From positions 9,248,017 through 9,312,016 of the forward strand of contig NZ_JQML01000001.1 in assembly GCF_000744705.1 (NCBI RefSeq): a DNA stretch of 64,000 nucleotides, given 5' to 3'. The notes beneath the pieces are model-generated. The model saw only the letters and a list, made by a program, of their open reading frames with translations, was not told the DNA's origin and did no database searches. The translations under genes were made by a program, and so were the position numbers. Positions 26,759-39,828 of the stretch are shown here, in pieces. Position 1 is the first letter of the stretch. Each line of letters begins with the position of its first letter. This stretch comes from Streptacidiphilus albus JL83. GTDB taxonomy: Bacteria > Actinomycetota > Actinomycetes > Streptomycetales > Streptomycetaceae.

Positions 26759-28000
26759 TCAGCCGGTGAAGGCGGCGAGCCCGTCCGGGGTGCCGAGCCC
26801 GGTGGGGCCGTCGTAGCCGACCTCGGCGGTGCAGAGGTAGGCCGGGGTGCAGGTGGCGGTCTTGCCCTTGGTGACGTCGTTCAGGGCGGAGGGGTCGGCG
26901 TACAGGTCCGCCGCCGGGTAGCTCACCGTCGGGGCGCCGGCGTCCGCGAAGACGGAGGCGATGAGCGGGGAGGCGACGCTGGTGCCGCCGTAGACCTCCC
27001 AGCCGGTGGCGCCGTAGGTCTCGTAGACCGCGACCCCGGTGGCCGGGTCGGCGACCGCGGAGACGTCGGCCACGGTCCGCTTGGCGCAGCCGGTGTCCTT
27101 CTGCCAGCTGGGCTTGGCGTCGTAGGCGGAGCAGCCGGAGCCGGCGCCCTCGGTGGACGAGGTGGACCAGACCGACTCGGTCCAACCGCGGGTGCTGGAG
27201 GCGGTCTTGAGCGAGGTGCCGCCGACCGCGGTGACGTACTGGGAGGCGGCCGGGTACTCGACGCCGTAGCCGCCGTCGCCGGAGCTGGCGGTGACGGCCA
27301 CGCCCGGGTGGTCGTAGTACTTGGTGTCGTAGGTCGGGTCGGAGCTGGACTCGGATCCGCCGTAGCTGTTGGAGACGAACTTCGCGCCGAGCTTGACCGC
27401 CTCGTTGACGGCGGCGCCGAGGTTGGCGGTGCTCGCGGACTTGGCCTCGACCAGGATGATGTGGGCGTTGGGGGCTATCGCCGAGACCATGTCCAGGTCC
27501 AGCGACTCCTCGCCCGCCCAGCCCTTGTTGTTCTTCGGCAGCGTGCTGGTGCCGGTCTGGCTGACCTGCTGGAAGCAGCCGCCGGCGGCGGTGCACGCGG
27601 GCAGCCCGTACTGGCTGCGGTAGACGGCCATGTCGGCGCCGGCCTTGGGGTCGTTGTAGGCGTCGATCAGGGCCACGGTCTCGCCGGCGCCGCCGTTGGC
27701 GGGCAGGTTGTAGGCGCTGAGCAGGTCGCTCGGGCCGAAGCCGGAGGGGGTGGCGTCGCGGGTCACGCCTAAGGCGTTGACGTGCTCGGTGGCGTTGGTG
27801 ACCCGCAGCGCGTCGCAGGCCATCTGGCCGACGGCGCTCGGCACGGCGCAGGAGCGGACCCAGGTGGTGGCTGCTCCGGCGTTGGCCGGGGCGGCGTTGG
27901 CGGGCGCGGTGGAGACCAGGGCGGTGGTGGCCAGTGCGGCGGAGCCGAGCAGCGGGAGCACGATCCAGCGCCGGCGCTGGGAGTTCGGGACGGTAAGCAC
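26759..28000 (-). CDS. Secreted S53 (sedolisin-type) serine peptidase
   Basis: A 413-aa protein. Sec signal peptide to about residue 37 (TAPANAAPANAG). The catalytic Glu and Asp lie in GEESLDLDM, the oxyanion Asp in SSGDGGYG, and the nucleophile Ser in GGTSVASPL, with SNSYGGSE before it. This is the Glu/Asp/Ser arrangement of sedolisins rather than a subtilisin triad. It lacks the long N-terminal pro-domain of classical acid sedolisins. The GTG at 28000 is chosen because GGAGGC (28007-28012) precedes it; longer frames cover low-complexity sequence. Confidence 0.85.
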   Translation of the reverse strand: MLTVPNSQRRRWIVLPLLGSAALATTALVSTAPANAAPANAGAATTWVRSCAVPSAVGQMACDALRVTNATEHVNALGVTRDATPSGFGPSDLLSAYNLPANGGAGETVALIDAYNDPKAGADMAVYRSQYGLPACTAAGGCFQQVSQTGTSTLPKNNKGWAGEESLDLDMVSAIAPNAHIILVEAKSASTANLGAAVNEAVKLGAKFVSNSYGGSESSSDPTYDTKYYDHPGVAVTASSGDGGYGVEYPAASQYVTAVGGTSLKTASSTRGWTESVWSTSSTEGAGSGCSAYDAKPSWQKDTGCAKRTVADVSAVADPATGVAVYETYGATGWEVYGGTSVASPLIASVFADAGAPTVSYPAADLYADPSALNDVTKGKTATCTPAYLCTAEVGYDGPTGLGTPDGLAAFTG

Positions 28001-28163
28001 GGTAGTGCCTCCAGGAGTTGGGGTTTCCAGGGGTGAAGAGGAGGTCTTCCCCGGTTCAGGCCGACTTGGCGAGAAGGCTACTGACGAGTTCATGACCAAA
28101 CAAGAAGGATGGAACTTCCGATTTCTCGCCATATCGGGAGGTAATCGGGCAAGCGCCGGATTT

Positions 28164-28181
28164 CCCCGCCAATCGGCGGGG
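28164..28181 (-). terminator. Candidate terminator of the sulfosugar operon
   Basis: CCCCGCC (28164-28170), loop AATC, GGCGGGG (28175-28181): a 7-bp GC stem 45 nt after the stop of the glycoamylase-like gene. No U-tract. Confidence 0.4.
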
Positions 28182-28226
28182 GGTGCCCCGCCGGTCGGGG
28201 GGAGCCGGTCCGGCCCCGTCGCTGGC

Positions 28227-29912
28227 TCAGTCGGAGGCACGGCGGCGCCGTTTCCTCGGCCGGGCGCGGCCGGTGGCCGTGGCGGTCGACCGGGCGGTCG
28301 ACCGGGCGGTCGGGACGGCGGTCGCAGCGGCCGTGCCGCCCGGCCCCAGCCCCTGGATCGAGAACTGCTCCAGTCCGAAGTAGGGTGCGAGCCGCTGCTC
28401 GTAGCTGCTCCCGGCGATATAGCTCTGGAGTTGGTCGTGGTCCACCGCGTCGTCGACGGCCATCAGGATCGTCAGCTGGCTCACGGCCAGGTAGCGGCCC
28501 GCGATCTCGCCGTTCCCCGGGCTCACCGAGTCCAGGAACCCGTACTGGGTGTAGAGCGCGGGGTAGTCGGCGACCAGCCGGCCGATGTCGGCGTCCGCCT
28601 GCTGCGGGACGACCGGCAGCGCCAGGAAGGCCGCGTACGGGGTGACCGCCGCGTCCTTCACCTTGCCCTGGTCGCTGGCCAGGTCGGGCACGCCGTAGTT
28701 GGTGTACTTGGGCTTCGCCCCCGGCGCGGTGGCCGGCGCCCAGCCCCAGACCGGGGAGCCGGTGCCGGCCGCGTAGGCTCCCTGGGCCAGCGCGGTGTTG
28801 CGGTCGTTCAGGCCCAGGCTGGCCGGCGCCGCCGTCTGCTCGGGGAAGACCAGGTCGGGGGCGAGCGCCTGGTACAGGCTGCCGTCGAAGGTCGGCACGA
28901 ACTTGATCCGGTCGAAGGTGTAGTGCCCCTCGAACACCGGGTAGCTCTGCCCGCTCTGCGGGTCGGTGTAGTCCTCGGTGGCGCCCTGCGGGGTCTGCCG
29001 CTGCCGGTGGCCGGCGGGCGGCGTCCGGTCCAGTCCCCACCACAGGGATCCGGGGACCTTGCCGCTGCCGATCGCCGCGTACTCGGCGATCCGCGGTCCC
29101 GAGTACGCGTTCAGATAGGTCGACTTCGAATAGCCTCCGCCGACCTGGTAGCCGTTGTACAGCACGTTCCCGGCCCGGTCGTACAGCAGTTGCCACTGCA
29201 TCGCGCCCAGCAGCGCGGCGCAGCCGGGCGCGAGCCGGGGGAACGCGCCCTCGGTCACCAGCAGCCCCTGGGCCAGCCAGCCGTTGTCGACGGTCGAGAC
29301 ATAGCCGGCCGGGTCCTGCTCGCCCTGGGGGGTGGAGATGGCCGCGCCGTTCTGCGTGCTGTACCAGCGGAACAGGAATCCCTGGTACTTCGGCAGACTC
29401 CGGATCTCCGCCAGGGTCGCCGCCGCGTCCGCCTCGGCCTGCGCCGGGGAGGCCAGGCCGAGGTCCCTGGCGGCCACGATCGCGGAGAGGTAGCTGCCGA
29501 TCAGCGAGGGGTTGGTGTACTCCCGTGCGGCCGCGGCCGGTTGCAGCGCCGCGCCGGTGCCCGGCGGGCCGGCCAGCGGGACGCTGTCGAGCAGCAGGTG
29601 CGTCGCCGGATCCAGGTCGGGGCCGGACAGGAAGTTCCAGGTCCTGGCGGCGACCTGGCGCAGGAAGCCGAGCTGGGACGCCGTCAGTTCGCTGGTGGGG
29701 TCGGTCACCAGGGTGTTCCCGGCGGCCGCGGCGGTCCATCCGGCTGCGCCACTGCCGGCCGAGGGGGCCGAACCGGTCGGTCCGGAGGAGCCGGAGGAGC
29801 CTGAGGAGCCGGACGGGCCCGAGAAGGCGCCCTCCAGCTGGGCCGCACCCAGTCCGCCCGCCACCAGCACGACCGTCACCAGCAGCCCGACAGCGCCTCG
29901 CCCTCGCCTCAT
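28227..29912 (-). CDS. Secreted glycoamylase-fold (COG5368/DUF3131-like) protein
   Basis: A 561-aa protein. One N-terminal hydrophobic helix (residues 7-25) acts as signal or anchor, followed by a Gly/Ser/Pro linker (SGSSGSSGSS). The core has the (alpha/alpha) barrel motifs of this family: YVSTVDNGWLAQGLLV, SLYQALAPDLVFPEQ, SPVWGWAPA, VTPYAAFLALPVVP and GFLDSVSPGNGEIAGRYLA. Relatives include beta-1,2-glucan-acting glycoside hydrolases (GH144/GH189). The C-terminal 40 residues are Arg/Thr-rich. It is 40 nt downstream of the processive glycosyltransferase, so it probably trims or transfers the polymer outside the membrane. Confidence 0.8.
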   Translation of the reverse strand: MRRGRGAVGLLVTVVLVAGGLGAAQLEGAFSGPSGSSGSSGSSGPTGSAPSAGSGAAGWTAAAAGNTLVTDPTSELTASQLGFLRQVAARTWNFLSGPDLDPATHLLLDSVPLAGPPGTGAALQPAAAAREYTNPSLIGSYLSAIVAARDLGLASPAQAEADAAATLAEIRSLPKYQGFLFRWYSTQNGAAISTPQGEQDPAGYVSTVDNGWLAQGLLVTEGAFPRLAPGCAALLGAMQWQLLYDRAGNVLYNGYQVGGGYSKSTYLNAYSGPRIAEYAAIGSGKVPGSLWWGLDRTPPAGHRQRQTPQGATEDYTDPQSGQSYPVFEGHYTFDRIKFVPTFDGSLYQALAPDLVFPEQTAAPASLGLNDRNTALAQGAYAAGTGSPVWGWAPATAPGAKPKYTNYGVPDLASDQGKVKDAAVTPYAAFLALPVVPQQADADIGRLVADYPALYTQYGFLDSVSPGNGEIAGRYLAVSQLTILMAVDDAVDHDQLQSYIAGSSYEQRLAPYFGLEQFSIQGLGPGGTAAATAVPTARSTARSTATATGRARPRKRRRRASD

Positions 29913-29952
29913 CGAATCCTCCTCTCACCGTGGTTGACGTCTCGTCCGACGG

Positions 29953-31929
29953 TCATGGGGTCTCCGCCTCCGGCAGGTAGCGCGGCCGGAGCACCGGCCA
30001 GGTGATGTCGGCGTCCGGCTCCGTGCGCCGCACCGGGTGCAGCCACGGCACGCTCACCGGCCGGGTTCGCAGCAGCAGCAGGGCCTCGATGTTGGCCAGG
30101 CGTTTGATCATCATGAAGACGAGGAAGAGCGGCCACCACAGGAACGCGCGCCACAGCCCGCGGTAGAACATGGCACACATGACCATGATCAGCATCGGCA
30201 GTTTGGCGATGATCAGGAACGCCAGCAGGTGCATCACGTTCCGGCGGACGCCGGTGTCGAAGAAGGCGCCCTGGACGGCGAACAGGTAGGCCGCGAACTG
30301 CATCGGCTGGACCAGTCGGCGGGCGCCCTTGAAGAACTCGGCGAACCAGAACCGCGGACCGGCCGAACCGCAGGCCGGCGGCACGAAGCGGGCGAAGTTG
30401 TAGATCGAGCCCTGGCTCCAGCGGCGCCGTTGCAGCCGCAGTTGCGCGGCGTTCTCCGGGACGTCCTCGTAGGCCCAGATCCGGCGGTCGTAGATGGCCC
30501 GGTAGCCGAGCCGGGCGAGGCTGCAGGTGAAGTCGATGTCCTCACCGAGCATCCCCTCGGGCCAGCCGCCGATCTCCAGGGCCGCCTCGCGGCGGACCGC
30601 CGTGTAGTTGCCCGGAACGCACGGTTGGGCGTCGACCACCGCGTAGGCCAGCCGGGGCAGTCCGAACCCGGCCGCCAGCTCCATCGAGCGCATCCGGTCC
30701 ACCCAGGTGGTGAACGGCCGCTTGACGAACATGAATGCCCCCACCAGGCCGATCCGCGGGTCCGACTCGAACCACGGCACGGTGTGGCGGAAGGAGTCGG
30801 GATGCACCTCGCAGTCGGTGTCGTGCCGGATGACGTAGTCCGCCGTGCACCGGGTGAGCGCCAGATTGAGCGCGGTGGCCTTGCCGACGTGCGAGCCGGC
30901 GATCACCTCGCCGCGGACCGCGACCGCGCGGGCCATCGCCTCCTCGGCGAGCCTGCGGGTGTCGTCCTGGGAACCGTCGTCGCACAGGATCAGGTGCACC
31001 GGGCCGCCGTAGACCACCGCCGCGCGGTCGATGCACTCGACCCAGCGGACGATGTTGGTCTCCTCGTTGAAGGCCGGCCCGATGACGTCGATCGGCGGCG
31101 GGTCCTCGCCCGGCTGCGGCAGCCTCTGGCCGCCGCACAGCCGCAGCAGGCACAGCACCACGTAGATGCCGAACTTCAGGTACACCGGCACCGCGATCAG
31201 CACGAAGGTGTACTCGACCGGGTCGTTGGCGCTCAGGTTCACCAGTGCTTCCGCGCCGACCGCCACGAACACCAGGACCACCAGCAGCACCGTGCCCATG
31301 ATCAGGGTGTCGAGGGCGTCGCCCCTCCGCCGGATCGGCACCTGGGTGGGCCGGGGCAGCTGGTAGGTGGTCAGCGCCAGCCGCATGGCCAGCAGGTAGG
31401 CGATCACGTAGTGCAGCAGGATGCTGATCAGCGGGAACCGCCCGAGCGAGAGCCCGGCGTCGATGCCGACCACGCTCAGCAGGGTGTCGGCGGCGATCGA
31501 GGCCGCGATCGCCAGTGGGGCGTGCAGCAGGATCATGATCCGCCGCCCGGGGGTGGCGTGCACGCACAGGGACAGGGCGAGCGCGAACGCCAGGAAGCTG
31601 AGCGGGATCACCGGGCGCAGATGCGAGTCGTAGGCCCCCACCACGCCCGGCTCCGGCAGGATCCGGGTGGTGGAGAACGCGACGGCCGTGCGGTAGTCCT
31701 TGGCCAGGTCGGGGGTGCGCAGCCCGACCAGGGCGATGCTGCCCCCCAGGCAGATGGTGACGAAGGCGGCCACCCGCCACAGTGACGGCGGATGCGGTTT
31801 GGGCAGCACCACCACGTTGCCCACGCCGCGGTCGGCGTCGTCGAAGCGGCGGCGCAGCGCGTGCAGGATGATGCCGACCAGCACCGCCAGGTCGAGCAGG
31901 AAGATCAGCAGGCCGGGGAGGCGGAGCAC
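29953..31929 (-). CDS. Processive family-2 glycosyltransferase, membrane-embedded
   Basis: A 658-aa polysaccharide synthase. About seven N-terminal helices (residues 5-265), then a GT2 domain with all processive motifs: DDGS (317-320), HDTDCEV (369-375, DxD-like), the catalytic-base GEDID (462-466) and QRRRW (500-504). Four C-terminal helices follow. The layout is that of cellulose/hyaluronan/alginate-type synthases that couple polymerisation to translocation. It is the only glycosyltransferase in the locus and lies between the HlyD-like gene and the glycoamylase gene, all minus-strand and closely spaced. Confidence 0.88.
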   Translation of the reverse strand: MLRLPGLLIFLLDLAVLVGIILHALRRRFDDADRGVGNVVVLPKPHPPSLWRVAAFVTICLGGSIALVGLRTPDLAKDYRTAVAFSTTRILPEPGVVGAYDSHLRPVIPLSFLAFALALSLCVHATPGRRIMILLHAPLAIAASIAADTLLSVVGIDAGLSLGRFPLISILLHYVIAYLLAMRLALTTYQLPRPTQVPIRRRGDALDTLIMGTVLLVVLVFVAVGAEALVNLSANDPVEYTFVLIAVPVYLKFGIYVVLCLLRLCGGQRLPQPGEDPPPIDVIGPAFNEETNIVRWVECIDRAAVVYGGPVHLILCDDGSQDDTRRLAEEAMARAVAVRGEVIAGSHVGKATALNLALTRCTADYVIRHDTDCEVHPDSFRHTVPWFESDPRIGLVGAFMFVKRPFTTWVDRMRSMELAAGFGLPRLAYAVVDAQPCVPGNYTAVRREAALEIGGWPEGMLGEDIDFTCSLARLGYRAIYDRRIWAYEDVPENAAQLRLQRRRWSQGSIYNFARFVPPACGSAGPRFWFAEFFKGARRLVQPMQFAAYLFAVQGAFFDTGVRRNVMHLLAFLIIAKLPMLIMVMCAMFYRGLWRAFLWWPLFLVFMMIKRLANIEALLLLRTRPVSVPWLHPVRRTEPDADITWPVLRPRYLPEAETP

Positions 31930-32001
31930 CGCAGTCCCTCCCTTCCGGGGTCGGTCGCCGTGGTCGCGGTCATCGCCGTGGTCGCGGTCGGACCGGCGGG
32001 C

Positions 32002-33564
32002 TCAGGGGAAGACCACATCGGCGCTCATCCCGGTCATGGTCCCCTGCGGCCAGCTGGGGACGGCCAGTCGTACCGGGTACTCCACGTTTCCGTCCTGGTC
32101 CACCGGGATCGGGCTGATCTGCGTGATCGTGGCGGCGACGGTCCTGCCCAGGGCGTTCACGGTCACCTTGGCCGCTCCCCCCAGCCGCAGCTTCGCCGCC
32201 TCGTCCTCGCTGACCTGCGCCAGCAGGTACCGCTGCGAGCTCACCAGCCAGATCAGCGGCTGCTCGCTCGCGCCGGAGTTGCCGGACCCGGACGAGGAGT
32301 CCGGCGGGAAGAGGCTGAACGCCGGGCCCGAGGTGGCCTGGGCGGTGCCGGGGCCGGAGAAGCCGTGCACCCCGTCGGTGCCGTCCAGGTCCCCGACGAT
32401 CCCGCCGACATCGGCGACGACGCCGCTGATGGGGGAGAGGAGGGTCAGCGCGGCGAGGTTCTGCTGGTCCTGGTCCACGGCGGTCTGTGCGGAGGCCACG
32501 TTCGCCTGCGCGGTCGAGAGCTGTGCGCCGGTGGCCGGCGCGGTGTCGACCGCCTCCTGGTTCTGGGCGAGGGCGAGGGCCGAGCCGGCGCTGGAGGCGG
32601 AGTGCGCCGCCGTGTCCTGCAGCTGCTCGGCGTCGGCCCTGGAGTTGGCCAGGGCGGCGGCGGCGCTGGCGATGGCGGTGGAGTCCTTCTGGAGCTGGGA
32701 CTGGAGGCCGAGGCAGTAGGTACTGGCCGTGGCCGGTGCGGTGGCCTGCGGCGGCTCCGTGGCCGCGGATCCGCCGGACGCGCGGGTCGGACCGGGCGTA
32801 CCGACCGCACCGACGGTTCCGACCGTACCGACAGTTCCGACAGTTCCGACCGGGCCGGGGAGGTCGGGCGCCCGGACCGCGCCGGGTACCCGCACGGAGT
32901 CGGCGGGCGGCGTCGAGCAGTCGGTCCGGTACTGGGCGGTGTCCGCCCTGAGCGTGGCCTGGGCGTTCTCCACGGTCTGCTGGGCCTGGGCGATCTGGGT
33001 GCCGCCCTGAGCCTCGGCATCCTGGGAGGCCTGCTGCGCGGCCGACAACTGCTGTTCGGCGGCCGCCGTCTGGAGTTGCAGGCTCTGCTTTCCGGCCGAC
33101 GAGAGGGTGGGTGACTCCAGGGCCTTCACCACGGTCCGGTCGGCGGCCAGGACCGCGGTCGCGTCCTGCAGCGTGGCCTGCGCGTACGCCTGGTCCAGGG
33201 TCGCCAGCGGCTGCCCCTTGGTCACCGTCTGCCCGGCGGAGACCAGGATCTGGCTGACGCGTCCGGTCTGGGTGAAGTCCAGGCTGACCGAGTTCTGTGC
33301 CTCGACCGTGCCGGCGAAGCCGGTGGGTCCGCCGGTGATCTCGGTGAAGGTGTACCGGGCGAGGACGCCACCGACCACCAACAGGGCCACTGCCACCAGG
33401 AGCTGGCGCATCGAAGCATGGGGTAACCGGCGGTGCGACGGCTCCGGCCGGCCGCCGGCGCCGGCGTCGCCGCCACCACCGCTCGAACTGCCGTCCGCGG
33501 ATGCGTCGTTGACGGCGGCGGCGGCGTTCATACCGCGCACCCGAACCGGGACCTTGCTCGTCAT
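32002..33564 (-). CDS. HlyD-type membrane fusion (periplasmic adaptor-like) protein
   Basis: A 520-aa protein. One helix at residues 53-72, then a split lipoyl/barrel-sandwich domain (QTGRVSQILVSAGQTVTKGQPLATLD and, after the hairpin, LLSPISGVVADVGGIVGDL) flanking a long Ala/Gln-rich coiled-coil hairpin of about 250 residues. A beta-barrel end domain follows. The hairpin is interrupted by a Pro/Thr linker with TVG repeats encoded by 9-nt tandem units near 32812-32860. Partner of the polysaccharide synthase by analogy with the Alg8/Alg44 pair. Its ATG overlaps the stop of cysN (ATGA), so its translation is coupled to sulfate activation. Confidence 0.82.
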   Translation of the reverse strand: MTSKVPVRVRGMNAAAAVNDASADGSSSGGGGDAGAGGRPEPSHRRLPHASMRQLLVAVALLVVGGVLARYTFTEITGGPTGFAGTVEAQNSVSLDFTQTGRVSQILVSAGQTVTKGQPLATLDQAYAQATLQDATAVLAADRTVVKALESPTLSSAGKQSLQLQTAAAEQQLSAAQQASQDAEAQGGTQIAQAQQTVENAQATLRADTAQYRTDCSTPPADSVRVPGAVRAPDLPGPVGTVGTVGTVGTVGAVGTPGPTRASGGSAATEPPQATAPATASTYCLGLQSQLQKDSTAIASAAAALANSRADAEQLQDTAAHSASSAGSALALAQNQEAVDTAPATGAQLSTAQANVASAQTAVDQDQQNLAALTLLSPISGVVADVGGIVGDLDGTDGVHGFSGPGTAQATSGPAFSLFPPDSSSGSGNSGASEQPLIWLVSSQRYLLAQVSEDEAAKLRLGGAAKVTVNALGRTVAATITQISPIPVDQDGNVEYPVRLAVPSWPQGTMTGMSADVVFP

Positions 33565-34919
33565 CGCCGCTCAGCTTCCGTTTCTTTGTCGAGCGCGCCG
33601 ACCATGCCGGCGGTCACGGTGGCGCCGTCCGCCTCGTCCACGAGGAGGAAGGAGCCGGTCCGGCGGTTGGCGCGGTAGTCGTCCAGGGGCAGGGGGGTCG
33701 CCGTGTGCAGGGTGATCCGGCCGATCTCGTTGGCCGACAGGCTCGGCGGCGCGGGATCGGCGGTGAGGGTGCGCAGGTCCAGGCGGGTGTCCAGGGAGTT
33801 CACCACGGCCCTGACGGTGCCGGCGGCGTGCTGCAGCAGCACCCGGTCGCCGGCGTGCAGCGGCCGCTCGTCGAGGTGGCACACGGTGGCGGTCAGCCGG
33901 TCGGTGACCCGTGGCAGCGCGTCCGGCGGCACGTCCAGCGGCACGATCAGGTCGCCCCGGGAGACGTCGAGGTCGTCGGCGAGCCGTAGGGTGACCGACT
34001 GCGGCGCGAACGCGAACTCGGCGTCGAGCTCGCCGAGCCGGTCGATCGCGGCGATCGAGGTGCGCTGCCCGGAGGGCAGCACCAGCACCCGTTCGCCCCG
34101 GCGCAGCACTCCGGAGGCCAACTGCCCGGCGTAGCCCCGGTAGTCGCGGAACTCGCCGGCGTGCTGCGGGCGCAGCACGTACTGCACCGGGAAGCGGGCC
34201 GGTTGCCCGGCCGGGTCCTGGTCGGTGTCCACCTGCTCCAGGTGCTCCAGCAGCGTGGGACCGCGGTACCAGGCCGTGGCCGCGGACCGGTGCACCACGT
34301 TGTCCCCGTTCAAGGCGCTGATCGGGATCGGGACGACGTCGGGCACGCCCAGCCGGGCGGCGTACCGGGTGAACTCGGCGGCGATGGCGGCGAAGACCGA
34401 CTGGTCGTGGCCGACCAGGTCCATCTTGTTGACCGCCAGCACCAGGTGCGGGACCCGGAGCAGGGCGGCGACGGCGGCGTGCCGGCGGGTCTGCTCGACG
34501 ACGCCGCTGCGGGCGTCGACCAGCACCACGGCCAGCTCGGCGGTGGAGGCACCGGTGACCATGTTGCGGGTGTACTGCACGTGCCCGGGAGTGTCGGCGA
34601 GGATGAACCGGCGCCGGGGCGTGGCGAAGTAGCGGTAGGCGACGTCGATGGTGATGCCCTGCTCGCGCTCGGCCCGCAGGCCGTCGGTGAGCAGCGCCAG
34701 GTCGGGGACGTCCTGACCGCGTGCGCGGGACGCCCGTTCCACCGCTGCCAGCTGGTCGGCGAGCACCGCCCGGCAGTCGTGCAGCAGACGGCCGACCAGC
34801 GTCGACTTGCCGTCGTCCACGGAGCCCGCGGTGGCCAGCCGCAGCAGTGAGGCCTCGCCGGGGCGCGGGCGCGCCTCGGCGGCGCGGCCGCCTCGGGTGG
34901 GTCGGTGTGGGGAGCTCAT
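33561..34919 (-). CDS. cysN: Sulfate adenylyltransferase subunit 1 (GTPase)
   Basis: A 452-aa translation-factor-like GTPase: P-loop GSVDDGKST (32-40), DTPGH switch II, NKMD and EF-Tu-like barrels behind. With CysD it makes adenosine 5'-phosphosulfate (APS) from ATP and sulfate, driven by GTP hydrolysis. No APS-kinase (CysC) fusion is present. The start at 34919 lies 2 nt after the cysD stop. Its stop overlaps the start of the HlyD-like gene. Confidence 0.93.
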   Translation of the reverse strand: MSSPHRPTRGGRAAEARPRPGEASLLRLATAGSVDDGKSTLVGRLLHDCRAVLADQLAAVERASRARGQDVPDLALLTDGLRAEREQGITIDVAYRYFATPRRRFILADTPGHVQYTRNMVTGASTAELAVVLVDARSGVVEQTRRHAAVAALLRVPHLVLAVNKMDLVGHDQSVFAAIAAEFTRYAARLGVPDVVPIPISALNGDNVVHRSAATAWYRGPTLLEHLEQVDTDQDPAGQPARFPVQYVLRPQHAGEFRDYRGYAGQLASGVLRRGERVLVLPSGQRTSIAAIDRLGELDAEFAFAPQSVTLRLADDLDVSRGDLIVPLDVPPDALPRVTDRLTATVCHLDERPLHAGDRVLLQHAAGTVRAVVNSLDTRLDLRTLTADPAPPSLSANEIGRITLHTATPLPLDDYRANRRTGSFLLVDEADGATVTAGMVGALDKETEAERR

Positions 34920-34921
34920 GG

Positions 34922-35830
34922 TCAGAAGTACCCTTCCCGCTTCCGGTCCTCCATCGCGGCCTCGGACAGCTGGTCGTCCGCACGGGTGGCGCCCCGCTCG
35001 GTCAGCGTGGAGGCCGCGATCTCCTGGATCACCTCGTCGACGGTCCTCGCGTGCGAGTCGACGGCGCCGGTGCAGGACATGTCGCCCACCGTGCGGTAGC
35101 GGACCTGCCGCCGTTCCACGCTCTCGCCCTCGCCCGGGCCGCCCCAGTCGCCGGGGGCCAGCCACATGTCGTCGCGGCGGAAGACCTCGCGCTTGTGGGT
35201 GAAGTAGATCTCCGGCAGCGCGATCTGCTCCCGGCCGATGTACTGCCACACGTCCAGTTCGGTCCAGTTGGACAGCGGGAAGACCCGGACGTGTTCGCCC
35301 CGGCGGCGGCGGCCGTTGTAGAGCGACCACAGCTCGGGCCGCTGCCGGCGCGGGTCCCAGGCGCCGAAGCGGTCGCGCAGCGAGAACACCCGCTCCTTGG
35401 CGCGGGCCTTCTCCTCGTCGCGTCGCCCGCCGCCGAACAGCGCGTCCAGTCGGCCCTGGGCGACGGCGTCCAGCAGCGGTACCGTCTGCAGCGGGTTGCG
35501 GGTGCCGTCCGGGCGCTCGCGCAGCCGGCCGTCGTCGATGAACGCCTGGACGTCGGCGACCGTCAGCCGCAGCCCGTGCTCGGCCACCACCGCGTCGCGG
35601 AAGGCGATGACCTCGGGGAAGTTGTGCCCGGTGTCCACGTGCAGCAGCCCGAACGGCACCGGCGCGGGCCAGAAGGCCTTGCGGGCCAGGTGCAGCATCA
35701 CGATCGAGTCCTTCCCGCCGGAGAAGAGCATCGCCGGCCGTTCGAACTGGGCCGCGCTCTCGCGGAAGATGTGCACCGACTCGGATTCCAGCACGTCCAG
35801 TTGGGAGAGTCGCAGTCCGGACCCGGTCAT
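34922..35830 (-). CDS. cysD: Sulfate adenylyltransferase subunit 2
   Basis: A 302-aa PP-loop ATP pyrophosphatase: SGGKDS (37-42), LHVDTGHNFPEV, RVFPLSNWTELDVWQYI, and the C-terminal KREGYF ending typical of CysD. Catalytic subunit of ATP sulfurylase. Its ATG overlaps the stop of cysH (ATGA). Confidence 0.95.
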   Translation of the reverse strand: MTGSGLRLSQLDVLESESVHIFRESAAQFERPAMLFSGGKDSIVMLHLARKAFWPAPVPFGLLHVDTGHNFPEVIAFRDAVVAEHGLRLTVADVQAFIDDGRLRERPDGTRNPLQTVPLLDAVAQGRLDALFGGGRRDEEKARAKERVFSLRDRFGAWDPRRQRPELWSLYNGRRRRGEHVRVFPLSNWTELDVWQYIGREQIALPEIYFTHKREVFRRDDMWLAPGDWGGPGEGESVERRQVRYRTVGDMSCTGAVDSHARTVDEVIQEIAASTLTERGATRADDQLSEAAMEDRKREGYF

Positions 35831-36561
35831 GTGTGCAGCCCACATTCGGTCTTGGCCAGGCCCGCCCAGCGGCCGGAGCGCGGATCGGCCCCGGGCAGCG
35901 GGCGCCGGGTGCAGGGCTCACAGCCGATCGAGGTGTAGCCCTCCGCCAGCAGCGGGTTGACCAGCACGCCGTGGCGCGCGACGTACTCCTCGACCTGGTC
36001 CTGGGTCCAGGCCGCCAGTGGCGACACCTTCACCAGTTCGCGCCTGGCGTCGTAGTCGACCACCCGGATCCGCGCCCGTCCGGGGTGCTCCTCCCGGCGC
36101 ATCCCATTGATCCACGCGGTATAGGGCCGCAGCCCGCGGTTCAGCGGCTCGACCTTGCGCAGGGAACAGCACAGGTCCGGGTCGCGGTCGTGCAGCCGGG
36201 GGCCGTACTCGGCGTCCTGCTCGGCGGTGGTCTGCCGGGGGGTGAGCGGGAGCAGGTTGATCCGGTAGGTCTGGGCCACGGCGTCCCGGGTGCCCCTGGT
36301 CTCGGCGAAGTGGTAGCCGGTGTCGAGGAACAGCACGTCGATCCCGGGTGCGACGGTCTGCGCCAGGTGCACCAGATGGGTGTCCGCCATGGAGGAGGCG
36401 ACCACCAGTCCGGAGCCGAAGGTGCGGTGCGCCCAGGCGATGATCTCGCCGGCGTCGGCGCCGGCCAGTCGCACATCAGCCTCGTCGGCGAGCGCACGGA
36501 GTTCCGGAGCGGAAATCGGCACTGCCGGGGAATCCTCTTCCAAGCGGGCTCGCTTTTCCAT
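35827..36561 (-). CDS. cysH: Adenylyl-sulfate (APS) reductase, [4Fe-4S] type
   Basis: A 244-aa reductase. It has the cluster-binding CC at 131-132 (LCCSLRKVEPL), the CxxC at 214-217 (GCEPC) and the catalytic Cys240 in ECGLH. The CC...CxxC set marks APS reductases rather than PAPS reductases, so sulfite can be made directly from the CysDN product without CysC. AAGGAGGG stands just before the ATG. First gene of the operon cysH-cysD-cysN-hlyD-GT2-glycoamylase. No sulfite reductase gene is in the window. Confidence 0.93.
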   Translation of the reverse strand: MEKRARLEEDSPAVPISAPELRALADEADVRLAGADAGEIIAWAHRTFGSGLVVASSMADTHLVHLAQTVAPGIDVLFLDTGYHFAETRGTRDAVAQTYRINLLPLTPRQTTAEQDAEYGPRLHDRDPDLCCSLRKVEPLNRGLRPYTAWINGMRREEHPGRARIRVVDYDARRELVKVSPLAAWTQDQVEEYVARHGVLVNPLLAEGYTSIGCEPCTRRPLPGADPRSGRWAGLAKTECGLHT

Positions 36562-37117
36562 TGGAGCCCTCCTTTCAGTGGTCCAAGTGGTACCAGAGGC
36601 GTGGCTCGAATATACCTCCCCCACCGCTCCTTCTTAGCGAACCTTTACCTTCATATCTGTCGAATCAAGGGGTCCGAACCACTGCGCACATGCGCCGTCC
36701 GGCCTGTATTTGCGGCCGTCTAACCAGGTACTTTGTTGAATTATCATTCATGGGGCGGGGTGCTGCCGGCGGCACGGAGTGCGGTGCAGAGTGCCACCGT
36801 GCGGCGACAGGACCGGCATGACACCCCTGATCAGTGGTGACAGGCACCGCCTGTGCCAATAGACGAATATCTAATCTGTCGGCTGCCGAAGCAACGAACA
36901 ATCTGTACTGGACACGACAGTGGTCTTGTGCCACAGTCCCTAGATATCCGGCAGCCCCTCACGGGCCAGCCGCCCCCGGCCGACATTCGGCGGGGCCCTG
37001 GATTGTCACGCGGAGCGCCCAGGGGCACTTCCGCGACCGGCCGCTTCGCGTGCCGTTCCCCGGACATATTCCGATTGAATCGTGTCCGTAGACGTATCTA
37101 TTCACTGGAGTGAGTGC
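36562..37117. other. Divergent regulatory region between cysH and sqdB
   Basis: About 555 bases, clearly less GC-rich than the surroundings, with no credible gene. It must hold the promoters of the two opposed operons. Visible small repeats are ACAGGC-ACC-GCCTGT (around 36840-36855), and on the minus strand a TATATT near 36608. No known operator consensus is recognised. Confidence 0.5.
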
Positions 37118-38353
37118 ATGCGTATTCTCGTACTGGGCGGCGACGGATTCTGCGGCTGGCCCACCGCGCTCCACCTCTCCGACCGCGGCCACGATGTGAC
37201 CGTCGTCGACAACCTCAGCCGCCGTGCGATCGACCTGGAGCTGGAGGTCGAGTCGCTCACGCCGATCCGGCCCCTCGGCGAACGGCTGCGGGTCTGGCAG
37301 CAGGTCTCCGGCCGGGAGATCGGCTTCGTCCGGCTCGACCTGGCCACCGAGGGCGACCGGCTGACCGCCCTGCTGCCCGGGCTGCGCCCGGACGCGATCG
37401 TGCACTTCGCCGAGCAGCGGGCGGCGCCGTACTCGATGCGGTCCACCGCGAGCAAGCGCTACACCGTCGACAACAACGTGCGGGCCACCCACAACCTGCT
37501 GTCCGCGCTGGTCGCGACCGGGACCGACGCGGCGCTGGTGCACCTGGGCACCATGGGCGTCTACGGCTACGGCTGGTCCGGCTCGGCCCCGATCCCGGAG
37601 GGCTACCTGACCGTCAAGGTCCCCACCCCGGAGGGCGACCTGGAGCGCGAGATCCTGCACCCGGCCAATCCCGGCTCGGTCTACCACCTCACCAAGACCC
37701 TCGACCAGCTGATGTTCTCCTTCTACGCGGCCAACGACCAGGTGCGGATCACCGACCTGCACCAGGGCATCGTCTGGGGCACCCAGACCGAGCAGACCGC
37801 CCGCGACGAACGGCTGATCAACCGCTTCGACTACGACGGCGACTACGGCACCGTGCTCAACCGGTTCCTGATGCAGGCCGCCATCGACCACCCGCTGACC
37901 GTGCACGGCACCGGCGGCCAGACCCGCGCCTTCATCCACATCCAGGACACCGTCAGGTGTATCGAGATCGCCCTGGCCAATCCGCCGGCCGCGGGCGACA
38001 AGCCGATGGTCTTCAACCAGGTCACCGAGAGCCACCGGGTGCGCGACCTGGCCCAGCTGGTCGGCAAGCTGACCGGGGTCCCGGTGGCGAACCTGCCCAA
38101 CCCGCGGATGGAGGCCAAGGAGAACGACCTGGTCGTCCGCAACGACCGGTTCCTGGCGCTCGGCCTGGCCCCGACCACGCTGTCCGACGGACTGCTCGAC
38201 GAGTGCACCAACATCGCCCGGCGCTACCGGCACCGGGTCGACCCGAGCAAGATCATCGCCAGGTCGGTGTGGCGCCGGGGCATGGAGACCGCCCCGGACC
38301 TGCTGACCGAACTACCGGCGGCCCCCGCCGGGCGGCCCGGCGACGGGCGGTAG
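37118..38353 (+). CDS. sqdB: UDP-sulfoquinovose synthase (SQD1/SqdB-like)
   Basis: A 411-aa extended SDR that matches SQD1/SqdB block by block: GGDGFCGWPTALHLS (8-21), VHFAEQRAAPYSM (95-107), LVHLGTMGVYG (140-150), YHLTK (189-193, the Tyr-Lys pair), NRFDYDGDYGTVLNRF, GGQTRAFIHIQDTVRCIEIA and NPRMEAKENDL. The enzyme joins sulfite to UDP-glucose to give UDP-sulfoquinovose. The TMGEYG motif of most relatives reads TMGVYG. ATG 37118 is preceded by GGAG. Divergent from the sulfite-producing operon, which strongly supports the sulfite-using reaction. Confidence 0.9.
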   Translation: MRILVLGGDGFCGWPTALHLSDRGHDVTVVDNLSRRAIDLELEVESLTPIRPLGERLRVWQQVSGREIGFVRLDLATEGDRLTALLPGLRPDAIVHFAEQRAAPYSMRSTASKRYTVDNNVRATHNLLSALVATGTDAALVHLGTMGVYGYGWSGSAPIPEGYLTVKVPTPEGDLEREILHPANPGSVYHLTKTLDQLMFSFYAANDQVRITDLHQGIVWGTQTEQTARDERLINRFDYDGDYGTVLNRFLMQAAIDHPLTVHGTGGQTRAFIHIQDTVRCIEIALANPPAAGDKPMVFNQVTESHRVRDLAQLVGKLTGVPVANLPNPRMEAKENDLVVRNDRFLALGLAPTTLSDGLLDECTNIARRYRHRVDPSKIIARSVWRRGMETAPDLLTELPAAPAGRPGDGR

Positions 38354-38357
38354 CGGG

Positions 38358-39740
38358 ATGCAGCACCGGCCGAGCGGCGCCCGTGCCTCCGCCGGGCGGC
38401 CGCAGGATCCCTACGGCCTCCCGCTGACCACCACCCCGGAGGCCGCCGACGCCTACAACCAGGGCCTGCGGCGCTTCCTGGGGGTGCGCTCCGGGGCCGC
38501 GGACGAGATCCGGCGGTCCGTGGCGACGGATCCCGACTTCGCCCTGGGACACGCCGCGCTCGCCCTGCTCGGACACGCGGGCGCCGCCGAGGTCGACATC
38601 CCCGACGCCCTGGGCGCCGCCGTCCGGGCGGCCGTGCACCGCCGCCCGGACGAACGCGAACGAAGCTTCCTGGTGGCCGTCGCCGAGCAGATCGGCGGGC
38701 CGGTGGACGGGCCGGTCGGCGGGCGGGTCAACGGCTGCTCCCGGGCCGCGGCGCCGCAACTGCTCCGGCACATCCGGGACTTCCCACGCGACGCCCTGTG
38801 CGTGAACATCGCCGTACCGACGATCTCCTCCAACGGGGTCACCCAGGGCGAGCAGGCCTGGTCCCTGATCGAGTCCCTGGACCTCGTCTACGGCGAAGAC
38901 CCCTGGTACCTGGGCCAGTTGGCCTTCGTCCGGCAGGAGCAGAGCCGCTGGCAGGAGGCCGAGACGCTGGCCTGCCGCGCGCTGGACGCCGACCCGGGCG
39001 CGGGCCACGCCGTGCACGCCCGCGCCCACGTCCTCTACGAGACCGGCGAGCACCTGGCCGGCCTGGACTGGCTGGAGGGCTGGCTGGGCCGCCACGGCGC
39101 CGACGCCTTCCAGTCCGCCCACTTCAGCTGGCACGCCGCGCTGTACGAGCTGATGCTGGACGATCTCCGGGCGGTGCGCGACCGCTACCGCACCCAGCTG
39201 GCACCGCCGCAGGTCACCGGCGCCCGGGCGCTGATCGACTCCGGCTCGCTGCTCTGGCGCTGCCACGTCACCGACCGCTGGGAGGGCAGGCTGCCGGCGG
39301 CGGCCGTGGTCGACACCACCCCCGAGGGCTGGCTGGACCGGCCGCCCACCGCGTTCGCCGCCCTGCACGCGGCCCTGCTGCTGGCGGCGTCCGCGGACGG
39401 CGACGGCCTGAGCCGGCTCCGGCGCAGCTGCCTCGCCCACGCCGAGCCCGATGTCAGTCCCACCCTGGCCGGGCTGTGCCAGGCGCTGATGGCGGTGGTC
39501 GAGCACCGCTGGGACCGCGCCGCCCGACTGCTCCAGCCGCTGCTGCCCCGACTGGAACCCCTGGGCGGCAGCGCGGCACAGCGCGACGTGGTCGAGGAGA
39601 CCCTGCTGTACGCCCTGGTCCGGGCCGGACGTAACAGGCAGGCCGCCCGGCTGCTGTCGGCCCGGCTCGACCGCCGCCCCGCACCCCTGGACCGGAACCG
39701 ACTGGACGTCCTCATGCAACGGGAGGTTGTGCGAGACTGA
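38358..39740 (+). CDS. TTC38-like tetratricopeptide protein
   Basis: A 460-aa helical-repeat protein. The start DPYGLPLTTTPEAADAYNQG and later GHAVHARAHVLYETGEHLAGLDWLEGWL, followed by FSWHAALYELML, match the TTC38 family (bacterial and animal TPR-like proteins with no known enzymatic activity). It begins 4 nt after the sqdB stop and is surely co-transcribed. Its role in the sulfosugar pathway, if any, is unknown. Confidence 0.75.
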   Translation: MQHRPSGARASAGRPQDPYGLPLTTTPEAADAYNQGLRRFLGVRSGAADEIRRSVATDPDFALGHAALALLGHAGAAEVDIPDALGAAVRAAVHRRPDERERSFLVAVAEQIGGPVDGPVGGRVNGCSRAAAPQLLRHIRDFPRDALCVNIAVPTISSNGVTQGEQAWSLIESLDLVYGEDPWYLGQLAFVRQEQSRWQEAETLACRALDADPGAGHAVHARAHVLYETGEHLAGLDWLEGWLGRHGADAFQSAHFSWHAALYELMLDDLRAVRDRYRTQLAPPQVTGARALIDSGSLLWRCHVTDRWEGRLPAAAVVDTTPEGWLDRPPTAFAALHAALLLAASADGDGLSRLRRSCLAHAEPDVSPTLAGLCQALMAVVEHRWDRAARLLQPLLPRLEPLGGSAAQRDVVEETLLYALVRAGRNRQAARLLSARLDRRPAPLDRNRLDVLMQREVVRD

Positions 39741-39828
39741 GGAGAGTGGGCAAGGATGACGTCCACTTCCGGACGAGGTGCGCCGTACCCGGTCAGACAA
39801 GACGACGCTTCGATGGAGGCACGTCGTC

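Follow-up and report, generated by a model that had tools for sequence, protein, structure and literature searches.

The genome of Streptacidiphilus albus JL83 (9.9 Mb, one contig) contains, at 9.248-9.312 Mb, a stretch of 64,000 nucleotides (hereafter, the window) in which genes for making sulfite lie next to genes for a putative UDP-sulfoquinovose synthase (SqdB) and a putative membrane polysaccharide synthase of glycosyltransferase family 2 (GT2). Sulfoquinovose is a sulfonated sugar that has been described chiefly in sulfolipids and in archaeal N-glycans, and the original prediction for this DNA was that these genes cooperate to make and export an extracellular glycan containing it. Profile searches found all the genes that it named in place. 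They are cysH, cysD, cysN, an hlyD-like gene, the GT2 gene and a glycoamylase-fold exoprotein gene, transcribed in this order on the minus strand, and the divergent sqdB-like gene, which is followed on the plus strand by a gene for a tetratricopeptide repeat (TPR)-like protein (Table 1).

Table 1. Features of the sqdB locus and its flanks, in window coordinates.
Feature	Position	Strand	Evidence
cysH, APS-type reductase	35827..36624	-	NF002537 250.6 bits (cut-off 154); motifs CC, CEPC, ECGLH
cysD, ATP sulfurylase small subunit	34922..35845	-	TIGR02039 439.5 bits (cut-off 396.6)
cysN, ATP sulfurylase GTPase subunit	33561..34919	-	TIGR02034 523.6 bits (cut-off 336.1)
hlyD-like membrane-fusion/adaptor protein	32002..33564	-	HlyD_3 27.8 bits (cut-off 22.2)
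GT2 processive-type synthase	29953..31929	-	Pfam Glyco_tranf_2_3 8e-22
Exported DUF3131/glycoamylase-fold protein	28227..29912	-	PF10091 44.7 bits (cut-off 27)
sqdB-like UDP-sulfoquinovose synthase gene	37082..38353	+	SQD1 1i24 1.4e-96; TMGVY, YHLTK
TPR-like protein (judged by eye), 3' of sqdB	38358..39740	+	No Pfam match
Presumed sedolisin-like secreted protein	26759..28240	-	No Pfam match
Guanidine-III riboswitch	39741..39811	+	RF01763 59.2 bits

The cysD gene overlaps the 3' end of cysH, whose likely start is an ATG near 36561, and the stop codon of cysN overlaps the start codon of hlyD (ATGA). Judged by sequence, these overlaps make the genes for sulfite production and the exporter gene appear to form a single unit. 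The sqdB-like gene probably starts at the ATG at 37118, and a promoter and terminator scan of the divergent region found nothing.

In CysH enzymes that act on adenosine 5'-phosphosulfate (APS), two cysteine pairs bind a 4Fe-4S cluster and an ECGxH motif is catalytic. The window CysH has both pairs and the motif (CC152, CEPC235, ECGLH260). It passes the general model NF002537 and scores 217.4 bits, under the cut-off of 235.3, against the APS_reductase model TIGR02055. CysN carries no fused APS kinase. A second cluster at 1.96 Mb encodes a NIR_SIR protein, followed by cysH, cysC (TIGR00455, 182.5 bits; cut-off 138.7), cysD, cysN, and ssuA- and ssuB-like genes. The genes shared with the window cluster stand in the same order, and their products are 64% (CysH), 81% (CysD) and 73% (CysN) identical to those of the window. 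The NIR_SIR protein is the sole protein with NIR_SIR domains found in the genome; it stays under every NCBIfam cut-off (the best being ferredoxin-nitrite reductase, 383.9 of 594 bits), and we call it a sulfite reductase because of its position before cysH. In contrast to this assimilatory cluster, the window cluster has neither the reductase nor the APS kinase gene (cysC), and thus it should stop at sulfite. The absence of a sulfite reductase claimed by the original prediction is therefore true for the window but not for the genome, and the second cysDNH set, which comes with an APS kinase and a reductase of the sulfite/nitrite type, indicates that the window holds an additional set ending at sulfite.

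The sqdB-like gene product has 423 residues, of which 10-401 are homologous to SQD1 (1i24), its best solved relative. PMC8987622 (Table 1 of that paper) assigns SQD1 and Agl3 the fingerprint [ST]MG...YxxxK, which appears here as T157-M158-G159 and Y201-HLT-K205, and T157, M158, G159, Y201 and K205 are invariant in 8 aligned sequences. Alanine mutants of Agl3 at His95, Arg101, Met145, Tyr182 and Lys186 were inactive (PMC4388408); by motif mapping the counterparts are H108, R113, M158, Y201 and K205, all invariant in the same alignment. These data suggest that the protein would make UDP-sulfoquinovose from UDP-glucose and sulfite. Two features speak against this identification: the Glu147/Tyr148 pair of Agl3 is replaced by Val160-Tyr161, and the protein scores 306 bits against the UDP-sulfoquinovose synthase model NF041015, under its cut-off of 575. 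The E147A mutant of Agl3 kept 12.4% activity (PMC4388408), and our guess is that NF041015 describes the TMGEY branch. The valine recurs elsewhere. A scan of named genomes yielded at least 574 SqdB relatives, and TMGVY was present in 78 of the 80 best loci, which were those examined. It was also present in seven of the eight SqdB proteins translated in a survey of plasmids (18 records with an SqdB match, 8 of them examined), the eighth (L213), 47% identical to the window protein, having no TMG pattern. The same two features would fit a locus in which a spare sulfate-assimilation set happens to lie beside an unrelated polysaccharide cluster, the "SqdB" being another nucleotide-sugar enzyme of the short-chain dehydrogenase/reductase (SDR) type that does not use sulfite. 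We regard this as very improbable in view of the fingerprint, the closeness to SQD1 and the lack in the window cluster of the reductase and cysC genes that the second cluster has. The sqdBDC-like neighbours of the same SqdB subfamily and a CysH-SqdB fusion frame, both described below, also argue against it.

Members of the same SqdB subfamily are found in other company in alphaproteobacteria. In Marinovum, sqdB is followed by a GT8 gene and an epimerase-like (SDR-type) gene, in Palleronia by genes annotated as GT8 and oxidoreductase, and in Loktanella by glycosyltransferase and oxidoreductase genes; the sqdB-GT8-SDR order of the first two resembles what we take to be the sqdBDC order. On pSymB of S. 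meliloti, where the gene table is incomplete, a sqdB with 65% identity to the window SqdB and the same Val precedes a GT8 gene; S. meliloti sqdB is reportedly needed for the sulfolipid sulfoquinovosyl diacylglycerol (SQDG). Besides its Val in place of Glu after TMG, the window protein differs from the SqdB, SQD1 and Agl3 synthases in that its gene neighbours a polymer synthase gene and an exporter-like gene.

Processive GT2 synthases of the cellulose, poly-N-acetylglucosamine (PNAG) and hyaluronan type have DxD, (T/G)ED and QxxRW motifs and flanking transmembrane segments. The window GT2 has seven hydrophobic segments, then a GT-A domain with DDG, HDTD (369), GED (462) and QRRRW (500), and then two more segments, nine in all. 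It matches no named-synthase equivalog model, the best being PgaC_IcaA (96 of 422 bits). The HlyD-like protein has a hydrophobic segment at its N-terminus and scores 63.5 bits against RND_mfp, under the cut-off of 94.9. The exoprotein, whose top solved-structure match is a cyclic beta-1,2-glucan synthase, is probably a glycan hydrolase. The synthase-dependent exopolysaccharide systems, i.e., those of cellulose, PNAG and alginate, likewise have a multi-spanning GT2 with DxD, GED and QxxRW motifs, an extracytoplasmic partner (HlyD-like here; compare Alg44) and an adjoining hydrolase or lyase. The window locus differs from them in its actinomycete envelope, in the approximately seven hydrophobic segments ahead of the GT domain, and in a precursor module that would make a sulfonated sugar from sulfate. 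The scan of window genes at the locus recognised a single glycosyltransferase, the GT2, and no GT4 or GT8. Neither a sulfotransferase nor an APS kinase was found among these genes, in which the locus differs from clusters for sulfated (ester) polysaccharides, the rest of the genome not having been searched for sulfated-polysaccharide genes.

To what extent these genes are inherited together was examined in a sample of 150 Streptomycetaceae genomes. SqdB (E < 1e-100) was found in 10 of them, nine at 84-100% identity and one (G007) at 50%, and the GT2 (E <= 1e-60) in exactly the nine with the closer SqdB, none having only one of the two. The chance of such a coincidence is 1/C(150,9) = 1.2e-14, uncorrected for kinship. 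Within the genus, seven of the 14 genomes have both genes and seven have neither. In the 20-kb neighbourhoods of eight close relatives, sqdB is accompanied by genes for GT2 and HlyD in all eight, the HlyD of a second subtype being matched partly (~30-34%), and by cysHDN in seven; G007 has none of GT2, HlyD, cysHDN or glycoamylase near its sqdB. The relative G070 (locus L046) shows sqdB, hlyD, cysN and glycoamylase matches in pieces, and assembly errors are likely in view of its completeness of 76%. Beyond the family the GT2 is rare at E <= 1e-40, being found in three of 396 genomes of the phylum (its own and two at 30-32%), in one of 394 genomes of the class (its own) and in none of the annotated plasmids. 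SqdB is commoner (93 of the 396 phylum genomes at E <= 1e-80), and 25 genomes, including its own and one with a partial match, have it at >= 64% identity.

An SsuABC-like transporter lies beside cysN at the locus in four of the eight relatives (permease and ATPase; G119, G050, G074 and G058) and in Kutzneria sp. 744, and the locus transporter scores 130 bits against SsuA_fam (cut-off 163.5). The locus resembles an assimilation cluster in which uptake (in some genomes), activation and sulfite formation are retained, without the two genes that would divert sulfite or APS. In a CysD tree (32 rows, 17 labelled primary) the window CysD clusters with its counterparts at the loci of other genomes; a branch (95/94) divides the copies at the locus in eight Streptomycetaceae genomes from the 17 primary rows. 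The position of the partial, divergent second copy from G070 is uncertain. For Kutzneria, Catenulispora and one metagenome-assembled genome (MAG), the locus copies, long and without a placement, fall on the primary side of the 95/94 branch. CysD matches twice in seven of the nine locus-bearing genomes, with a partial second match (60%) in G070.

Among the 80 best named loci, six show cysHDN, GT2 or HlyD at >= 60 bits. In Kutzneria sp. 744 the SsuABC-like genes and cysNDH are divergent from sqdB-hlyD-gt2-glycoamylase, the sqdB and hlyD genes overlap (TGATG), and the glycoamylase is 60% identical to that of the window. The locus of Kitasatospora sp. MAP5-34 is on the same contig as G119 and is thus not independent. 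Catenulispora rubra has cysND and, cut off by the contig end, the first part of hlyD, MAG L095 has cysNDH 6-8 kb from sqdB, the Acidimicrobiaceae MAG L091 has HlyD, GT2 and a C17 exoprotein at low identity, and the Nocardioidaceae MAG L110 has CysH. In an SqdB tree of 88 rows, the proteins of Streptomycetaceae, Kutzneria and Catenulispora form one group of 10 (Shimodaira-Hasegawa-like approximate likelihood ratio test, 93), whose neighbours are proteins of Streptosporangiaceae and of other MAGs; L091 and L095 branch elsewhere, and L110 went into the class "other".

The identities to the window in Kutzneria and Kitasatospora, respectively, are 83% and 89% for SqdB, 75% and 85% for CysD, 42% and 31% for HlyD, and 72% and 42% for GT2. 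Two GT2/HlyD types accompany one SqdB type, and the polymer module thus differs in history from the sulfosugar module. In the six genomes of the second subtype no glycoamylase match was seen; a C17 exoprotein (no Pfam match in either of the two members scanned) is present in five and a beta-helix protein (Pect-lyase_RHGA_epim) in three. Another actinomycetote, G228, has HlyD, GT2 and C17 genes in a row (L168, 8-4150, plus strand) without an SqdB match at E <= 1e-80, indicating that the polymer module can exist apart from SqdB. UDP-sulfoquinovose might thus provide a single decoration or cap, whether on the GT2 glycan, on a cell-wall polymer or on a secreted small molecule, and not the backbone unit of the GT2. 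Between subtypes GT2 falls to ~42% and HlyD to ~31% while SqdB stays at 84-90%, the module of G228 suggests that it can work with other sugars, and sequence cannot reveal the substrate specificity of a GT2. Nevertheless, a decorating transferase would have to sit elsewhere, the GT2 being the only glycosyltransferase recognised at the locus, and we consider this alternative quite unlikely.

Links between CysH, SqdB and polymer genes were also found in other bacteria. In L110 (WQZX01000007.1, 9092-11215, plus strand), one 707-codon frame consists of an APS reductase (TIGR02055, 240.4 bits against the cut-off of 235.3; CC, CAPC, ECGIH), a Ser/Thr/Pro-rich linker and an SqdB (TMGVY, YHMTK); the frame may instead give two proteins, as an internal ATG with a putative ribosome site lies ahead of the SqdB part. 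On plasmids of two Rhodobacterales, Pelagovum pacificum and Rhodobacteraceae bacterium M382, an APS-type cysH lies near sqdB, as the next gene in the former and the next but one in the latter (L207, 8001-9907; L214, 38427-42190). The M382 plasmid has a sulfotransferase gene between sqdB and cysH, and carries many polysaccharide genes (export protein, YjbH, YjbF, rfbABCD and several glycosyltransferases). On a linear plasmid of Rhodococcus qingshengii (L208, 8001-12998, plus strand), sqdB overlaps a gene for a BcsB-like protein (sub-threshold, 19 of 21 bits), which is followed by a GT2 synthase gene whose product is 32% identical to the window GT2 over 236 residues; a SulP-family anion transporter gene lies ~3 kb upstream. 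In a Saccharibacteria MAG (L092, 10022-12222, plus strand), sqdB is directly followed by a gene that, by eye, is GT2-like.

The UDP-sulfoquinovose could also go to SQDG through a glycosyltransferase encoded elsewhere in the genome, with GT2 and HlyD as neighbours using another sugar. The sqdBDC-like gene orders of alphaproteobacteria, presumably of SQDG type, are in agreement with this explanation, as are Jeotgalibacillus and Trueperaceae, where the same SqdB subfamily stands directly before GT4 genes. As an SqdX-like query we took the GT4 encoded next to sqdB in Jeotgalibacillus (L128); we assume its likeness to SqdX, no SqdX model being among the NCBIfam matches shown. The nearest SqdX-like GT4 of the S. 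albus genome was rejected as a partner of sqdB, since it is present in 106 of the 150 family genomes (E <= 1e-60) versus nine for this sqdB. The original prediction held that it would be refuted by an SQDG synthase elsewhere using the UDP-sulfoquinovose, with SQDG in lipids; the genome search for such a synthase covered SqdX-like GT4 but not the SqdD type (GT8), and its best candidate is an unlikely partner. The co-occurrence of SqdB and GT2, the conserved neighbourhood, the overlap of hlyD with cysN in the window and with sqdB in Kutzneria, and the lack of GT4 and GT8 genes among those scanned at the locus all point away from a lipid product, which we consider unlikely.

Several further observations weigh against a dedicated sulfosugar polymer. 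The neighbourhood whose conservation the original prediction proposed to test is kept for GT2 and HlyD and, with one exception, for cysHDN, and the full set is present in Kutzneria, but the glycoamylase gene is found in only two of the eight relatives (G054 and G070) besides Kutzneria. The exception, G146, has no cysHDN nearby and only a CysD copy elsewhere; conversely, G058 has the locus CysD copy only, and of 12 genomes without the locus 10 have one CysD and two (G046 and G062) have two. Apart from S. albus itself, this SqdB type (>= 64%) occurs without the GT2 in 24 genomes of the phylum sample, and 74 of the 80 best named loci show none of cysHDN, GT2 or HlyD in the available DNA, many of their contigs being short. 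Seven loci of the sister clade have sqdB among genes that, by eye, look like housekeeping genes. A kinship-aware independent-pairs test on 19 genomes, with CysD as species proxy, gave one pair on well-supported branches and five on all branches and has no power; the proxy tree of primary CysD asks for five label changes. Finally, an AlphaFold model of the GT2 (4 sequences) was of low confidence (mean predicted local distance difference test score 52.8) and was not used as evidence.

The TPR-like gene is present in one of the eight relatives (G054), and the sedolisin-like gene is near the locus in four, at differing positions, so that its membership in the locus is uncertain. The Guanidine-III riboswitch lies immediately 3' of the TPR gene and is followed by a gene (ATG ~39829) for a small membrane protein of the CBU_0592 family, without Pfam match.

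Taking these data together, we propose that the locus encodes a synthase-dependent exopolysaccharide system that provides itself with a sulfonated sugar, a reading to which we assign a probability of roughly 0.7. CysDN would activate sulfate to APS, which CysH would reduce to sulfite, and the divergent SqdB would add the sulfite to UDP-glucose, yielding UDP-sulfoquinovose. The membrane GT2 would then polymerise a sulfoquinovose-containing glycan, either a homopolymer or a copolymer with another UDP-sugar, and extrude it with the HlyD-like protein as extracytoplasmic adaptor, while the glycoamylase-fold exoprotein would trim or edit it. The gene company, the second cysHDN set and the SqdX-like check support the sulfosugar-glycan interpretation as a whole; we infer that sulfoquinovose is a substrate of the GT2, and part of the polymer, because of the co-inheritance of the genes and the coupling of their reading frames.

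The original prediction considered such a glycan new for actinomycetes, and in the open-licence literature, which leaves subscription papers aside, we have found no precedent, i.e., no sulfoquinovose-containing polysaccharide from an actinomycete. PMC7922415 was discarded as a precedent, as sulfoquinovose appears only in its reference list. The N-glycan pathway of Sulfolobus Agl3 uses UDP-sulfoquinovose for a glycan and not for a lipid (PMC4388408), in which it resembles the system proposed here; it differs in making an archaeal S-layer N-glycan, whereas here a bacterial GT2 synthase is accompanied by HlyD and by its own sulfite-making genes. The nearest case in this literature, the wps-1 cluster of Actinoplanes missouriensis (2026), is of the Wzx/Wzy kind and has two predicted sulfotransferases as well as an adjoining sulfate-activating gene; its description remarks that bacterial sulfated polysaccharides were known only from cyanobacteria (PMC13390465). 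It shares with the window locus a predicted sulfur-bearing actinomycete polysaccharide beside sulfate activation, but it would carry sulfate esters and use Wzx/Wzy, whereas the window genes point to a sugar with a C-S bond and a GT2 synthase.

It is somewhat probable, in our judgement, that the locus represents an undescribed class of actinomycete extracellular polysaccharide, in which sulfoquinovose would be polymerised by a dedicated GT2/HlyD machine with its own sulfate-to-sulfite operon, and that this idea has arisen more than once in bacteria, as the Rhodobacterales plasmids, Rhodococcus and the fused CysH-SqdB suggest. The pairing of CysH with SqdB suggests that sulfite, a toxic intermediate, may pass directly to its user. 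If this interpretation is true, the product would add an acidic sulfonated biopolymer to those known, a C-S-bonded counterpart of the sulfated glycosaminoglycans, and it would be a further source of sulfoquinovose for the bacteria that feed on this sugar.

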